Positions 42,046 through 60,835 of a DNA stretch of 64,000 bases are shown piece after piece. Under the pieces are notes generated by a model. That model was not told the DNA's origin. It saw nothing but the letters and a program-made list of their open reading frames with translations, and made no database searches. Source of the stretch: Methanosarcina barkeri MS (GTDB lineage Archaea > Halobacteriota > Methanosarcinia > Methanosarcinales > Methanosarcinaceae); assembly GCF_000970025.1 (NCBI RefSeq), contig NZ_CP009528.1, positions 1,165,168 to 1,229,167 on the forward strand, in the 5' to 3' direction. The first letter of the stretch is position 1; each line of letters opens with the position of its first letter. A program made the translations under genes and the position numbers.

Positions 42046-43449
42046 TCAGGCAATCTGCTTTCTGAAGAGGTTGCAGGAATTAATCTTAATACCGAGCAAC
42101 TTTTCGATGTTCATCTTTGCAGCAATACCTTTTGCAGCGCCTGGTACTGACGTTATAATACCAATATCGAGTTCCTCACGCAGTTCACGCATAACGTGCT
42201 CATCTACAAGGTCCATCTTGTCGACCCCAAGTTTCTTTGCAACGTACTCTTTTGCCTCGCCTATGCGCATATTCTTTGAGAACTCCATTCTTGCAACCAG
42301 GTCTCCTGCAGCTCTTATTCCAGTCATACCTGAAGCCATTATGTGGGAAATCGGCATACCCATTGGGTCGCCGACTCCGATCTATATGCCGTCGACGCCT
42401 GCGATTTCGACCATTGCCTTGCTTGCTCTGGTAACCGCATCAATTGGAGGTGTTTCGAGCATGGGAATTCCGCCAACTCCCATACCCATATTTACATGAC
42501 AGGGGATTGGAGAAGCTCCTACGGCAGCCTTGATGAAAGTAACTGCACGAGCAAGGTTCCAGGCTGAGGTCTTGCTGGTATTGGTGTTGCATACTGGTCC
42601 AAATACATTTGCTCCGGCTTTTGCAACAAGCGGAGCCTGTTCATGCGGCCATAAACCTGCGAGCCGTACTCCATTATATTCCAGTTCTCCGTGCATACCG
42701 AGTACCATCTCGCCAGCCATTCCGGCTTCAATATACATATCAGAAAACTCTTTTCTAAGGGCCTGGATTGCATAAAGTGTGCCGTACATATCTCCGTCGC
42801 CTGCTGCGCCGGTTGTATCAAAGTTAACTCCATCGGCCCCTGAAGCAAAAAGTTTCTGCATAACCCAAACAGTGTCTCTAGTAAGGTGTTCGGCAGCGTG
42901 TTCCATAGATTCTTTTGCTTTGTCAATCTTGAATAGCTTCATAAGGTCGCCAGGGTTCTCAAAAGGTCCATCAGGTGTGTAGTAAAGTCCCATATTGGGC
43001 ATCGCACCGTAAAACAGTGGAATAACCATGTTCTGCTGGCAGACTTCCATTGCCTGGCACTCGTTTGATACGACAGGTTTTACCGGCTTGAAACTGTAAT
43101 CAATATGCCCGAGTTCCATTGTATCAGCACCAAAAGCACGCTCGTGCGTCATGCAGCCAACTAAACGGCTGGAAGGAATACCAACACCACTGTTGCCCTG
43201 GTCACCGTCAAGTCTAATGGTACCGATGTCGTGTGTCACAGGAATTTCCATACCCTGTTCGACACTAACAGTCTTGCCGGGCATCATGAGGATCTCTGCA
43301 AGCTTGTCCATTTCATTGGCATTGAGGTCAGGGATCTCTCCAAGGTCAGCAGCGTTTGCAGTACCGGCCTCGATCTCTTCCATTATTTTTTCTTTGGTAA
43401 GGTAGACACGTTTTCCGTCTCCCATTCTCAAAGCGTATTCAGTTGCCAT
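42046..43449 (-). CDS. mtbB: Dimethylamine methyltransferase with pyrrolysine
   Basis: The enzyme methylates the corrinoid protein MtbC with a methyl group from dimethylamine. The frame from ATG 43449 meets an in-frame TAG at 42382-42384 (codon 356) inside [19 protein letters not shown] and continues intact to TGA at 42046. The 467-residue product, with pyrrolysine at 356, has the family length. A single conserved stop in the known pyrrolysine position is translation by UAG decoding, not a mutation. Ribosome binding site GGAGAATTAAAAAA is upstream; mtbC ends 63 nt before. The tRNA-Pyl and PylRS genes are not in this window. Confidence 0.97.
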
Positions 43450-54338: not shown

Positions 54339-54589
54339 CTCTATTTTTCATTTTTTTATCTTTTACTAATTTATTGATAGGCTTAAACCCTATTTCGGGT
54401 AAATTAAAGCAATTATCTTATCGGGTTTTTCAGAATTTTTTCAGTCTACCAGTTTTGTAACCAGTTTTGTAAAAATTAGTTTTATATTTTTACCGCATAT
54501 TTGGAAAAATAAACACAAGTGAATTCTAACTTCAGCATAGATTTTCTGCCAGGTTTGAAACCCTTAACAGTTTTATTTAGAAAAGAGCT

Positions 54590-54780
54590 GCGTTCCCACC
54601 TGAAAAATTCTGGAAGTTCCGAACGGCACTTATTAGGTCTTGTTCAGGAAGAGGTTTAGTATTGGACTCACGGGTTGCGAGCTTCTTATCTCTTCACTTT
54701 TAGAGTAGATTTTTCGGAGTAGGCGTTGAAGTATTTCTTGTGGAATAGGTCTTGCTATGTGGTCTTGTAGATGAGAACGC
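54590..54780 (-). ncRNA. Candidate structured RNA, copy A
   Basis: A 191-nt segment read on the minus strand from 54780. It opens with GCGTTCTCATC and closes with GGTGGGAACGC, which pair over 11 positions with two G-T wobbles. Copy B pairs perfectly. A TATA box (minus, 54803-54810) lies about 26 nt upstream of 54780, as for archaeal start sites. Internal conserved blocks are CCTACTCCGAAAAA, CTCGCAACCCG, AAACCTCTTCC and CCGTTCGGAACTTCC. A T-run (CTCTTTTC) follows. No reading frame is shared. I do not recognise a known RNA family. Confidence 0.6.
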
Positions 54781-54802
54781 AAGTTATACTATGCTCTCAC
54801 TC

Positions 54803-54810
54803 TATATAAT
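54803..54810 (-). promoter_or_regulatory. TATA box of candidate RNA A
   Basis: Plus-strand TATATAAT (minus ATTATATA), centred about 26 nt upstream of the inferred start at 54780. The identical box is at the same distance in copy B, and the surrounding TTATACTATGC is shared, which is the main reason to think of RNA genes. Confidence 0.55.
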
Positions 54811-55020
54811 ATTTTTAATAAATAATATTATTTTAACTCTATTTTGTTGGTATACGTATCTAATTTTTCTTTACTGGTTTAACCTTATAGCATTAAGCTA
54901 CAGTACCTGATGTAACTGAATGTAAATACTAAAAATGATTGCCTGTAAGGTAACAAGAAAAAGGTCAACTCGTTCTAAAAGGATGATTTACCTGAGATCC
55001 GGTAGCAGATAATCTTTCTT

Positions 55021-55125
55021 TAAGAGAACTGAGTTTAAGAGAACTGAGTTTAAGAAAACTGAATTTAAGAGAATTGAGTTTAAGAGAATTGAGTTTAAAA
55101 GAATTGAATTTAAGAGAATAGAGTT
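55021..55125. repeat. 15-nt tandem repeat array
   Basis: Seven copies of the 15-nt unit TAAGAGAACTGAGTT with minor variants (TAAGAAAACTGAATT, TAAAAGAATTGAATT), starting at 55021 and every 15 nt. It lies between the two RNA candidates. Confidence 0.95.
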
Positions 55126-55460
55126 TTAGTCAATTATTAAGTTGACTAACTGATCTTAACTAAAGAAAAAACCGCAGAAAGCAGGAGATCATGGAAAAAC
55201 TCTGTACTAAAGAGACCACGGAAAAACTCTGTACTAAAAACGTTTCTGGGGTTTTCGCTCAAGTCTTTTTTTAAAAAGCTTGCGGAAAAGCAGTTTTTTG
55301 AAAAGGCTTAAAGAACTCGGGTGGATAATGGTGTCGAATCAATAGCAAATTCAGATATAATCGATTGTAATTATTCAAAGTTATTAAATTTTTGAGGATT
55401 GATATGATACTAAGGATATGAAATTCGTAAAGTTCCTAAACACTTTTTTAAAATGAGGTG

Positions 55461-55648
55461 GCGTTCTCATCCGAAAAACCTGGGAGTTCCGAACGGTATT
55501 CAAGAGACTCACTTTATTATAGTTGGGGAAGAGGTTTGAGGTACTTGACTTATGCGTTGCGAGTTTCTCTTTCTATATCCCTTTATTATAGAGTAATTTT
55601 CTGGAGTAGGTGCTCTTTGCTAGTGGGGTGTTAAAGGGATGAGAACGC
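55461..55648 (-). ncRNA. Candidate structured RNA, copy B
   Basis: A 188-nt segment, homologous to copy A, read from 55648. Ends GCGTTCTCATC and GATGAGAACGC form a perfect 11-bp helix. Shared blocks are CCTACTCCAGAAAA, CTCGCAACGC, AAACCTCTTCC and CCGTTCGGAACTCCC; similarity extends 60 nt upstream past the promoter box. A TATA box (minus, 55671-55678) is about 26 nt upstream. ACCTCATTTT after the helix gives a short T-run. The copies are roughly 70 percent identical with many loop differences. Confidence 0.6.
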
Positions 55649-55670
55649 AATTTATACTATGCAGTTATTA

Positions 55671-55678
55671 TATATAAT
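55671..55678 (-). promoter_or_regulatory. TATA box of candidate RNA B
   Basis: Plus-strand TATATAAT (minus ATTATATA), centred about 26 nt upstream of the inferred start at 55648; same sequence and spacing as in copy A. Confidence 0.55.
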
Positions 55679-55998
55679 ATTTTTAACAGTTAATCTTATT
55701 TTATTTCTCTTTTTTTGTGTATCTTTCTAACATAAGTTCATTAAACGAATGCTTATTTCATTAATTTAATAGTCATATAACCGCGTAAATTACGCGAGGA
55801 AACATCTCAAAATGTTGAGAATGATGAGGGGGATATCGTTCCAAAATGAAAAAATTCCGGAATAAGAAAATTCAGTAAAAGTAATTGCATATGAAATTGG
55901 CCTTTAGTTGTAGGTAAAATCGGCTTGAAGTTGCAGGTGAAATCAGCCTGAAGTGCAACTTACCTCATACGGATGTTATTATTGGAACTCCTCTTTTT

Positions 55999-56842: not shown

Positions 56843-58060
56843 ATGCAATCAGCCGGTTTCTACATTTTCATTCTAGTTCATTCTTCAATTGCCGCTACTA
56901 TGTATTATAAGCTTGAGGTAAAAAGTTCATTTGATGAATTGAATCAAATATTTGCACGTAACAAATCTAATGAATACAAAAAATTAAATTACTTGCTTCA
57001 AAACCTAAGTAAAAAAACAAATGTCGAATTTGCAATTTATAATTCAAAATTTGGAAGAAAGTTATCTATTATTTCATTTATGGTGGCTAGTACTTTTTTA
57101 TTTGCTTTAGCTGCATATGGAAACATTATCCTTTTATTAATAGGATTTATTTTATTCTTACCTGAAATTTACATATATTCAAAAAAAGCTACTACTTTTT
57201 TGAAACAAAGTCCTATTCATAATTTGGTTGTTAAAAAGTGGATAAACTTAACAACTAGCTTTATGTCTGATTTTTTATTTAATCTTGCGAGTAAGTATCT
57301 CAAGTTTTTATCTTATAACTTCGTCATTCTTATTTTGATATTCCTTTTCTGGTTTTTTTTGCAGAAAATTTTTCTGTCAGAAAATGGATTAAACTTTGAT
57401 AGTTTCTTGTCAGGTACAGCTAAAAATATGATTAATACAACGATTAATACAACAGTACTTTATGATGATAAACCGCTAGATGTAATATCTGGGAATAAGT
57501 TATCGTTTTCTGGAATTTTATTTACTCTAAGTATCGGTGGGGCAATTATTTTTTCATTAGTTGATAATTACAATGAACAAAAGGAAACAATTAATCAAAA
57601 CGTTTTTGAAATTAAAAAACATTACCAAAAATGGTTTCAATCTAAAAAAAATAGTCTTAATTTTGATCTCAGTAAATACGACGAATTTAACTCTGCTGTT
57701 AGTTATCTTCGAGATGAATTTAATACCTATGTGCAACTAAAGAACAATGTTTTAATATATCGTTTAACTAAAGGCTTAATGGTTATCATTTATTCAATGG
57801 GAATTTTTGTAATAATAGGGTCAGATTGGATAATTAGTCTTATTTTTAAACTATTTCCTATTGTTTCAACTATTTTTATTTTTTTGATTTTTTACCTTTT
57901 TTATTGCTTTAAAAACTCTACTTTTTACTCTATAGGAAAGACAAATATTTCTTCAGAAAGAAATCACACTATTTATGAATTTATAGATACCTCACAAGGC
58001 AATTACGGTGAAACAATTATTGATAAAAGAAATTACATGGTTGAGCCGATACATAAATAA
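56843..58060 (+). CDS. Unknown AT-rich membrane protein
   Basis: A 405-residue protein with roughly six membrane segments (about residues 72-110, 155-185, 215-240, 312-365) and a charged middle that could be cytosolic (ENQ... EIKKHYQKWFQ). I do not recognise the family. Base composition (rich in A/T, Ile, Lys, Asn, Phe) differs sharply from the housekeeping genes, suggesting transfer. It precedes the HNH and SIR2-like genes in the same orientation, each with its own promoter region. Confidence 0.7.
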   Translation: MQSAGFYIFILVHSSIAATMYYKLEVKSSFDELNQIFARNKSNEYKKLNYLLQNLSKKTNVEFAIYNSKFGRKLSIISFMVASTFLFALAAYGNIILLLIGFILFLPEIYIYSKKATTFLKQSPIHNLVVKKWINLTTSFMSDFLFNLASKYLKFLSYNFVILILIFLFWFFLQKIFLSENGLNFDSFLSGTAKNMINTTINTTVLYDDKPLDVISGNKLSFSGILFTLSIGGAIIFSLVDNYNEQKETINQNVFEIKKHYQKWFQSKKNSLNFDLSKYDEFNSAVSYLRDEFNTYVQLKNNVLIYRLTKGLMVIIYSMGIFVIIGSDWIISLIFKLFPIVSTIFIFLIFYLFYCFKNSTFYSIGKTNISSERNHTIYEFIDTSQGNYGETIIDKRNYMVEPIHK

Positions 58061-58064
58061 TCTT

Positions 58065-58100
58065 GGATCTTCGCTATTTCATATGAGTAACTCAAATTTT
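58065..58100 (+). repeat. Degenerate end of an ISL3-like element
   Basis: GGATCTTCGCTATTTCATAT, then GAGTAAC, resembles the left end of the MITE at 58129 (GGCTCTTCGCTGTTACGTAT, then GGGTTG) in the same direction. It is probably the scar of an older or partial element. Confidence 0.45.
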
Positions 58101-58128
58101 AGTTTTCCTAATTTTAGATAGATAATAA

Positions 58129-58307
58129 GGCTCTTCGCTGTTACGTATGGGTTGAAAATAATTGATTAGTTAGAAAGTATTCAGGCCAAATAGGAAAATA
58201 TCAAGTCTGAATGTAATTTTCAGCAACAACTGTTTTTATATTTAATATATTCAACTCAAAAATTTAGGAATGAAATATAAGTTACCCACTAGAAACAGCG
58301 AAGAGCC
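58129..58307. mobile_element. 179-bp MITE-like element with ISL3-type ends
   Basis: Left end GGCTCTTCGCTGTTACGTAT and right end, inverted, GGCTCTTCGCTGTTTCTAGT form terminal repeats of about 26 bp. ISL3-family elements commonly begin GGCTCTTCG. No coding capacity inside and no intact 8-bp duplication outside. It could also form a long hairpin RNA. Confidence 0.65.
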
Positions 58308-58317
58308 TTAAGCACTT

Positions 58318-58394
58318 AACTTTTGCGTTGTCTGCTTGTATCATATATTAAACTTTCAAAGTTTTTAATCTACCAAATAATTTTGGGATAAAAC
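58318..58394 (+). repeat. Dispersed 80-bp block, copy 3
   Basis: AACTTTTGCGTTGTCTGCTT, ATATTAAACTTTCAAAG, TTTTTAATCTACCAAATAAT and TTTGGGATAAAACA. It starts 10 nt after the MITE and lies 191 nt before the HNH start. Compare copies at 36845 and 56631. Confidence 0.8.
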
Positions 58395-58585
58395 AATCGT
58401 TTCTGATTATTTGACTATATGAAAATATACATAAACAATCCCATATTCAGAACTTTATTCAGTAAAATGTAAAATAGTAAATTGAATACTAAGCTTTTAC
58501 CAGAAGTCACCGAAAGTGAGTCATGGTGGAAGTTTTGGTAAGATTTGGACTACCAGTTAGTAAATATATGAAAGGTGGTTTACAG

Positions 58586-59407
58586 ATGGAAAGGCGGTAC
58601 TTGAAGGAATCTAATGGTCATTATGAAGTAGATATTGATATCTCTGTGGATGAGTGGAAGTCGATGCTTCAAAATCATGAAATTTTTTACGAAAACGCAT
58701 TGGATATGGTTTTGAAGTGGTATAATGAAGTTGGCCATCAAGCAACTGCTAATACAGTAAAGGAAAAATATTCACCTGAATTGAAACGTCCTCCATATAA
58801 CGGAATTGTCAAAGAATTAACTAGAAGGATTCTAAAACATTTGAATCGATTTGAAGTAATTGGTACTACAGGTAAAAAATCAGTATTCATCGTACCATTT
58901 GAAGGATGGTATGTTGACTACAAAAGACCTAATAAAGGATTCGTTTGGAAATTGAGAGATGAGTTGGTTCAAGCTTTAGAAGAAGTTGGTATGGTAGATA
59001 GACAAATATTTCTATCTAAAGAATACTTAGATAAAAAAGAGCAAGAAAATATTAACAAAGCGTTTCAGTTGTCTATATATGAATTGGAAAAAAAGATAGA
59101 TGCTAAAACAAAAAAGCAAACTCTGAAAACCACATCTGCAGCTTCGGTAAGATATGACCGAGATCCTGACGTTTCCGCTCTTGCGTTGAAGAAAGCTAAT
59201 GGTTATTGTCAACTTTGTGGTAACTTAGCTCCATTTTTAAAAAAAGATGGAACTCCTTTTTTGGAAGTTCATCACATCCGATGGTTGTCAGAAGGCGGGG
59301 TTGATGACAAAACGAATACTGTTGCTTTATGCCCTAATTGTCATCGTAAGATGCACATTTTAGACTTGCAGGATGATAGAGATTTCCTTATTAACTCAAT
59401 AAAATAA
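58586..59407 (+). CDS. HNH endonuclease
   Basis: A 273-residue protein with a C-terminal HNH nuclease domain: CQLC (208-211), LEVHHIRWLSEGG with the HH at 229-230, and CPNCHRKMH from 249. Four Cys form a structural zinc site. The first 150 residues form a separate helical, likely DNA-binding domain. ATG at 58586 follows AGGTGGTTTACAG; the longer frame from 58523 is less likely. HNH proteins of this layout occur as restriction or homing-type nucleases; target unknown. AT-rich like its neighbours. Confidence 0.85.
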   Translation: MERRYLKESNGHYEVDIDISVDEWKSMLQNHEIFYENALDMVLKWYNEVGHQATANTVKEKYSPELKRPPYNGIVKELTRRILKHLNRFEVIGTTGKKSVFIVPFEGWYVDYKRPNKGFVWKLRDELVQALEEVGMVDRQIFLSKEYLDKKEQENINKAFQLSIYELEKKIDAKTKKQTLKTTSAASVRYDRDPDVSALALKKANGYCQLCGNLAPFLKKDGTPFLEVHHIRWLSEGGVDDKTNTVALCPNCHRKMHILDLQDDRDFLINSIK

Positions 59408-59692
59408 ATAATAGAATTGGATAATTATTAATTTTTTTGATTTAGTATAACTTGTTACTCTCTCATTTTTTCAACATATTTAACCTATGTTTTTCTAAAC
59501 TTATTCATTCAATATACTGGAGGAGTATATGAGTTATGAATAGTTGCCCTTTAATCAACTGCAAAAAATAGTACGAAAAACATAGTAAACAGTAAACATA
59601 ACATTAAGAGCCTTATCTAGACATGAAAGCAAAAACAGACTATAATTTAAAAAACATTATATGTGATCGTATGTTACCAAATAGTGATTAAG
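59408..59692. other. Intergenic region between HNH and SIR2-like genes
   Basis: About 285 nt, strongly AT-rich, with no gene, hairpin or recognised repeat. GGAGGAGTATATGAG at about 59520 looks like an orphan ribosome binding site with ATG, but the frame closes within a few codons. Confidence 0.35.
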
Positions 59693-60835
59693 ATGAGTAA
59701 TAAAAATACTGGTTCTATGTATGCTGAAAACATATTATTATTAGGAGCTGGTTTTACTAAAAATTTTGGCGGTCTATTAGCAAGTGAAATGTGGGCTGAA
59801 ATATTTAATAATGAAAAAATTCAGGCTCAACCGAGAATTAAAAAATTAATGCTTAATAATTTCGATTATGAATCAGTTTATTACTCTGTGCTAGAAGGAT
59901 TAGAAGACAAAGAAAGTTTATTGCCAACTTTAAAATTTAAACGTAAAGAAAAAGACGCCATCCAAGAGGCCACGAAAGCTGCATACGACACCATAGACGA
60001 AACTCTTTTAAGGCGATTAAGAAAATACCCAGAAATAGAATGGATTCACAACACTGATACATTATTTTTTAATTTTGGCAATACAAAAAATAAAAGTTTT
60101 ATCTTTACACTGAATCAAGATTTGTTTATTGAAAGATTTTACCAAAATCCTCTTGAGCCTAGAGATCCTACCAAAATCTATATTCTTAGACTTTGTATTC
60201 CTGGAATTGATAAATATCCAGTATGGTATATGAATAGAGATTCTTTTTATGATTTTATTCCATTTTCAACTGATGAAGAAAGAGAACAATTCTATAATTT
60301 AAAAAAGGAAGATTATTATCTACTACCTAACGAAGATGTATTAAATTCTAGAAAAGAAAATCTGTTGAAAAAAGAAAGTTATTTTCTGATAAAGCTCCAC
60401 GGGTCATATAATTGGATTAGTTCTAATGGATCAAAATCAATGGTTATCGGCAGGGGCAAAACTGAACAGATTAATAATGAACCTTTATTGAGATTTTATT
60501 TTGACACTTTTAAAGAAGTACTTTCACAGGATAAACGTCGTTTATTAGTAATAGGTTATGGTTTTGGCGATGAACATATTAACAGTGTAATATCTAATGC
60601 TGTTAAAAATCATGGACTTAAAATTTATATCCTTTCGCCAGAGTCACCAAAAAGTTTTAAAGAAAAATTATGTGATGGATGCGGAAAGTCTAAAGATATT
60701 ATTAATATATGGAACGGAGTTTCAGGTTACTTCCAATGTGTAGAAGATGTTTTATTAAAGGATACATATGGTAATCAATCTGAAAAAGAGCATTTTTATA
60801 ATGTATTCTTCGGTAAAAACAACTGGAAGTTATAA
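59693..60835 (+). CDS. SIR2-like (NADase-type) protein
   Basis: A 380-residue SIR2-domain protein. Signature regions: LLLGAGFTKNFGG (NAD loop, residues 15-27), FTLNQD (138-143), IKLHGSYNW (around 233-241), VIGYGFGDEHIN. This matches the SIR2_2-type domain of antiphage and Argonaute-associated NADases, not the classic deacetylase with its zinc ribbon, though CDGCGKS late in the chain is a lone CxxC. ATG at 59693 follows the open frame from 59663. Isolated, AT-rich, next to HNH; a defence role is likely but unproven. Confidence 0.82.
   Translation: MSNKNTGSMYAENILLLGAGFTKNFGGLLASEMWAEIFNNEKIQAQPRIKKLMLNNFDYESVYYSVLEGLEDKESLLPTLKFKRKEKDAIQEATKAAYDTIDETLLRRLRKYPEIEWIHNTDTLFFNFGNTKNKSFIFTLNQDLFIERFYQNPLEPRDPTKIYILRLCIPGIDKYPVWYMNRDSFYDFIPFSTDEEREQFYNLKKEDYYLLPNEDVLNSRKENLLKKESYFLIKLHGSYNWISSNGSKSMVIGRGKTEQINNEPLLRFYFDTFKEVLSQDKRRLLVIGYGFGDEHINSVISNAVKNHGLKIYILSPESPKSFKEKLCDGCGKSKDIINIWNGVSGYFQCVEDVLLKDTYGNQSEKEHFYNVFFGKNNWKL

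Follow-up and report, generated by a model that had tools for sequence, protein, structure and literature searches.

A predicted family of stem-closed, open-loop small RNA genes in Methanosarcina, with a tandem pair in Methanosarcina barkeri MS

To our knowledge, very few archaeal small RNAs (sRNAs) have been characterized, and large paralogous families are almost unknown among them. For Methanosarcina mazei, 199 intergenic sRNAs were reportedly described by Jager in 2009. CsrB and RsmZ of bacteria are sponge RNAs that titrate an RNA-binding protein and carry repeated GGA motifs in hairpin loops, and the Ro-associated Y RNAs have conserved paired ends closing a pyrimidine-rich loop. In M. mazei, known sRNAs use unstructured segments for masking ribosome-binding sites (PMC3510493, PMC5867862), and sRNA154 and sRNA41 are Methanosarcina intergenic sRNAs for which such masking was proposed (PMC5867862, PMC3177094). 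The closest published case to the RNA genes described here is sRNA162/sRNA171 of M. mazei, which are intergenic, have their own promoter and terminator, and give 191-nt primary transcripts (PMC3510493). The alphaproteobacterial 'cuckoo' or anti-Shine-Dalgarno (anti-SD) sRNAs have also been mentioned (PMC10746234).

The window analyzed here is a 64,000-nt stretch of the M. barkeri MS chromosome. Two homologous segments were found on its minus strand where a first-pass annotation had placed them: copy A (54588..54782) and copy B (55459..55650), spans that count the outer A/T pairs. Measured from GCG to CGC, the proposed lengths of 191 nt (A) and 188 nt (B) were matched. Homology held as well, with the identity of about 70 percent corrected by BLASTN to 67% in an alignment of about 245 nt that takes in the promoter. 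In the minus-strand alignment, the copies had in common the promoter region, several interior blocks, and both ends, TTGCGTTCTCATC at the start and GRTGRGAACGC at the finish. Chance does not explain this likeness, as the element was found again in all 31 Methanosarcina genomes searched. Copy B is the upstream member of the tandem and belongs to a barkeri-type clade; it gave a 100% self hit and, with 191.9 bits, the top covariance-model score within its own genome. Copy A, the downstream member (125.9 bits), fell in a separate, well-supported clade of the tree. The closing stem was present in the folds of both. Between them, at 55020-55135, TTTAAGAGAAYTGAG-like units form a short tandem repeat. 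No Rfam 15 family reached the gathering threshold on either RNA, in line with the first-pass annotation, which had matched them to no RNA family; the single match, at E=3.5, falls between the copies and was attributed to chance. The only Rfam match at threshold in the window was the PYLIS_2 pyrrolysine insertion element of mtbB (42285-42384, minus strand, 112 bits). The data support, on sequence grounds, the reading of A and B as homologous noncoding RNA genes on the minus strand, each with an archaeal promoter of its own and a T-run terminator and neither belonging to a known family, because of genus-wide conservation, strand-specific G-U pairing, compensatory stem changes, and sharp conservation boundaries.

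The 'pair' of the first-pass annotation proved to be homologous but to represent two of three copies in its own genome (the third at G000:C2:338843-339074) and two of at least 126 distinct copies in a family. BLASTN detected the family in 31/31 Methanosarcina genomes. A covariance-model search of Methanosarcina genomes, which had been suggested earlier, was run with a model built from a 65-sequence alignment of non-redundant copies. It gave matches in 35 of 112 Methanosarcinaceae genomes, namely all 31 Methanosarcina and 4/4 of one sister genus, and no family match in the other 77 genomes (12 genera). Outside these two genera, loci with the same locus-I gene gave no match to the model either. 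Each Methanosarcina genome carried 1 to 8 copies (usually 3 to 6), the only single-copy genome being an incomplete assembly, and the RNA length was about 190 nt (range 152-231). The 22-base pattern TAGTATAANTTGCGTTCTCATC, which covers the -10 element and the RNA 5' end, matched 25 of 150 genomes of the order when two mismatches were allowed; the matches were confined to two of its 24 genera (Methanosarcina and the sister genus), and the reversed control gave zero matches in the same 150 genomes. Plasmid and phage collections contained no family match, and a role as plasmid or virus cargo was not supported; five pattern matches in IMG/VR were regarded as chance, as the covariance model found nothing there. 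A previously unlisted family of RNA genes of about 190 nt is thus carried by every species searched of Methanosarcina, an important methanogen genus, and the covariance model makes it possible to annotate the family in Methanosarcina genomes. Two genomes (G017 and G022; L074-L083) had 8 and 5 strongly diverged copies, respectively, scoring 20-80 bits. In these copies, the loop was altered while the promoter element and both RNA ends were retained, which suggests a design with constant ends and a variable loop.

The 5' and 3' ends of the RNA are joined by a 13-bp stem (P1) of nearly fixed sequence. Its 5' arm, TTGCGTTCTCATC, lies at 55638..55650 in copy B and 54770..54782 in copy A, and its 3' arm at 55459..55471 in B (GATGAGAACGCCA) and 54589..54601 in A (GGTGGGAACGCA), all on the minus strand. 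The end-to-end pairing noticed at first, of GCGTTCTCATC with GGTGGGAACGC in A and with GATGAGAACGC in B, was confirmed, as was its preservation in copy A through G-U wobbles in the 3' arm. Across the 126 distinct copies, stem pairs 3-13 were standard in 97-100%. Compensatory double changes were observed (e.g., G-C to A-U and U-A to C-G). Among 44 distinct stems, both-side changes occurred at 5 stem pairs, a number reached in 12 of 500 shuffles (shuffle mean 2.4), and in 7 cells, reached in 5 of 500; these shuffles take no account of kinship among copies. In the same 44 stems, 95% of cells were paired, versus 32-48% for slid-stem controls. The 126 copies contained 137 G-U and 11 A-C pairs, an excess that identifies the minus strand as the RNA.

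A TATA box precedes each copy on the minus strand, as had been annotated, and lies at -30..-21: ATATTATATA at 55671..55680 for copy B (1.1-1.8 bits per column over 65 copies) and 54803..54812 for copy A. Between the TATA box and the RNA lies a promoter-proximal element, ATAGTATAA, at -10..-2 (55652..55660 in B, with 1.1-2.0 bits per column, and 54784..54792 in A, from the same 65 copies). The element is family-specific. The TATA box combined with TAGTATAA occurred exactly in the whole genome only at copies A and B; the third copy carries TAGTATGA instead of TAGTATAA. Because of the TATA spacing, the RNA 5' end is probably at G3 of TTGCG, corresponding to 54780 (A) and 55648 (B), the positions proposed in the first-pass annotation. 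The short T-runs noted after both copies were present (minus strand, 55450..55453 for B and 54581..54584 for A) and resembled terminators in the T-tract statistics over copies, with at least four T within 30 nt in 95% of the 65 non-redundant copies versus 29% of the background. In the locus-I copies of one Methanosarcina clade (L043, L059, and others), an inverted repeat, TTATGT-GTT-ACATAA, lies just upstream of the TATA box; it is perfect in the copies displayed and is a possible operator.

Information content over the 65 non-redundant copies climbed at about -45 and dropped after about +15 beyond the stem, so that conservation was limited to the promoter, the RNA, and the T-tract. These boundaries bear on whether the family is a mobile MITE-like element, i.e., a repeat of about 190 bp with 13-bp terminal inverted repeats on which a transposase would act. 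Such an element would account for the inverted-repeat ends, the multiple copies in a genome, and the 8 scattered copies in one of the genomes; nevertheless, conservation passes the repeats by about 45 bp upstream over the promoter, the extension that had already been held to differ from a MITE, and by about 15 bp downstream. The promoter is conserved with the copies, pair 9 is T-G rather than T-A in 74 of 126 copies (a mismatch in a DNA repeat and a pair in RNA), plasmids and phages had no match, and the copies cluster by locus, at loci whose synteny holds throughout the genus and extends to the sister genus. We therefore consider a mobile element hardly credible. By comparison of copies, the family is best described as predicted independent intergenic RNA genes, each with its own TATA promoter, ATAGTATAA element, and T-tract terminator.

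The loop enclosed by the stem is 150-175 nt long and G-poor, with an interior G content of 6-15% depending on the clade. The whole RNA folded better than shuffles (mean z -2.5 to -4.2), as did both window copies (z -2.5 and -2.3), the latter because of the closing stem. Clade by clade, the interior folded like shuffled sequences (mean z -1.6 to 0.6), and thus the term 'structured' used in the first-pass annotation applies to the closing stem only. In these fold models, the RNA is a stem-closed, mostly open loop and not a compact structured RNA. A whole-interior consensus fold was rejected, as RNAalifold recovered the closing stem only, and an R2:R3 pairing from clade-wise folds was discarded for want of clear support. 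A local 5' hairpin (AUCCCUUUA with UAAAGGGAU) was supported in clades I and IIup-barkeri only, when comparisons within and across clades were made. A few short, pyrimidine-rich motifs were conserved in the loop. CUACUCC was exact in 41 of 65 copies, with up to four tandem 12-nt units, and CUCUUCC in 57 of 65, versus 0.03 per shuffled copy, at most once per RNA; CUCNCAACCC, ACCUCA, and CGUUCGGAACUUCCAGG were further conserved blocks. Depletion of the anti-SD core CCTCC was dropped as a sign of selection, since many other pyrimidine pentamers were equally depleted.

Several M. mazei sRNAs were found to carry translated small ORFs (PMC11456600), and the family might by analogy comprise small mRNAs or dual-function RNAs for a short peptide. 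Against this, the longest ORFs in the 65 copies averaged 27 aa versus 23 aa in shuffles, placing the coding potential near the shuffle level, six of the 65 copies had no ATG at all, and indels broke the frames. The earlier statement that A and B share no reading frame was thereby borne out; no conserved protein frame was found, and a coding function is very improbable. With a TATA box, a -10 element, a T-tract, and no conserved frame, the predicted transcription unit has the features of an archaeal intergenic trans-encoded sRNA.

The family, as predicted from sequence, resembles sRNA162/sRNA171 in being intergenic, in having its own promoter and terminator, in occurring as a homologous pair in one genome, and in its length, about 190 nt against 191 nt; its unstructured loop also recalls the unstructured segment by which those sRNAs bind targets (PMC3510493). 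However, sRNA162 has three stem-loops, in contrast to one end-to-end stem here, and is present once each in M. acetivorans and M. barkeri, next to an ArsR regulator (PMC3510493). We found five copies in G001 (5.75 Mb, presumed M. acetivorans), and the flanks of the family are DUF58/BatA, FAD oxidoreductase, and radical SAM/CobW genes, not ArsR. The target-binding bases of sRNA162 (CAC64-66 and CAU79-81) occurred together in no family copy within 5 nt of the expected register. Identity with sRNA162/171 was not supported, given the stem-loop number, copy number, flank, and missing target-binding bases. At about 130 nt and with two loops, sRNA154, which comes from the MM3337/MM3338 intergenic region, differs from the family by description only (PMC5867862, PMC3177094). 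The 'cuckoo' sRNAs are likewise multicopy with pyrimidine-rich unpaired motifs, but an anti-SD assignment was rejected, as the core CCUCC was present in only 1 of 65 copies. The conserved-sequence paired ends around a pyrimidine-rich loop are shared with Y RNAs, about half the length of the family RNA; this candidate was rejected because TROVE/Ro60 (PF05731) was found in none of the 112 Methanosarcinaceae genomes, while the positive control was matched in Deinobacterium. No such RNA is named in the available portions of a published M. acetivorans RNA-seq study (PMC5112694) or of a 37-strain ncRNA survey (PMC4214555). No description of the family turned up in the papers searched. Individual copies may already have been seen as transcripts in M. 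mazei, in the set of Jager 2009 or in the list of 242 sRNAs for that species.

The likeliest explanation, to which we give about an even chance, is a regulator acting in trans, with the open loop as a binding platform for several mRNAs or a protein. In such a mechanism, the fixed stem would protect the RNA ends and would probably serve as a handle for a common protein, and the open loop would offer multiple binding sites. The CUACUCC, CUCUUCCC, and GGAACUUCCAGG loop motifs could contact purine-rich mRNA stretches in the manner of the single-stranded linkers in known Methanosarcina sRNAs. General anti-RBS action was unsupported: against 561 ribosome-binding-site windows (gene starts predicted by a simple rule), the loops of the three copies in the M. 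barkeri genome formed strong predicted duplexes no more often than dinucleotide shuffles did, and sequences complementary to the longest conserved pyrimidine motif were not enriched in the genome (24/17 matches versus 40/30 for the control). A few specific mRNA targets are possible. The analysis pointed to neither a partner mRNA nor a partner protein. Protein binding would explain the near-fixed sequences of the stem and motifs at least as well as base pairing would. The main rival is a protein-binding sponge or RNP scaffold, in which the stem and the repeated CUACUCC/CUCUUCC would titrate an RNA-binding protein in the manner of CsrB/RsmZ and the other loop sequence would matter little. We regard this as a serious but tentative alternative. 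The motifs and the stem hold their primary sequence, lineages differ in motif number, with as many as four exact copies spaced 12 nt apart, while the remaining loop drifts, mRNA pairing was not enriched, and a repeated short motif in several paralogues is also a property of CsrB/RsmZ. On the other hand, no candidate protein emerged, no RNA has more than one CUCUUCC, and several conserved motifs of different sequence go beyond the need of a simple sponge. The motif of CsrB/RsmZ is GGA in hairpin loops, in contrast to CUACUCC/CUCUUCC in an open loop here; we know of no CsrA-type partner for the family, and a literature search for RNA sponges in archaea returned nothing. A bolder and rather doubtful proposal is that co-regulated RNAs with constant ends and variable loops, sharing an RNP and sequestering protein or RNA through the open loop, could constitute a new archaeal class and a counterpart of the CsrB type. 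We would define such a class, with similar reserve, by its own promoter element and sequence-fixed closing stem. Because the hosts are genetically tractable methanogens, the function of the family is amenable to direct experiment.

The family copies occupy three syntenic chromosomal loci with unrelated neighbors, and in the tree (195 columns, with several deep nodes weak) the clades followed the genomic locus, not the species. The paralogues are thus old and separately maintained, their loci having been kept apart since before much of the genus radiated. Locus I, common to Methanosarcina and the sister genus, lies between a radical-SAM gene and a neighborhood of CobW-GTPase, semialdehyde-dehydrogenase, and nickel-insertion-protein genes. 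Locus II is the tandem pair of this window; it is directly downstream of a DUF58/BatA-like VWA operon in relatives and adjoins CMD/XPB genes in barkeri-type genomes. Locus III adjoins genes for an FAD oxidoreductase and an HRQ1/MrfA-type helicase. Intergenic copies beside conserved genes, such as radical-SAM/CobW at locus I, might suggest a cis-acting element (e.g., a leader or antisense RNA of a neighboring gene), but the same RNA stands beside unrelated genes at the three loci with its own promoter and T-tract. As the neighbors differ at each locus, a cis role is very unlikely. For a trans-acting regulator, the common promoter element would make the copies one co-regulated set, and the divergence of the loops among paralogues at the three loci would probably mean different targets or timing. 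Directly downstream of the locus-I RNA, a conserved protein of about 102 aa with weak winged-helix/Sso10a-like similarity is encoded in several species (L100:10308-10613, L103:10492-10797, and L105:10980-11294). In the window, a gene block at 56843-60835, unseen at the corresponding site in the relatives examined, occupies the place of their DUF58/BatA operon; it encodes a 405-aa protein of unknown family, a 294-aa protein weakly similar to IscB and phosphorothioate-DNA restriction nucleases, and a SIR2_2 protein, and it looks like a defense-gene insertion.
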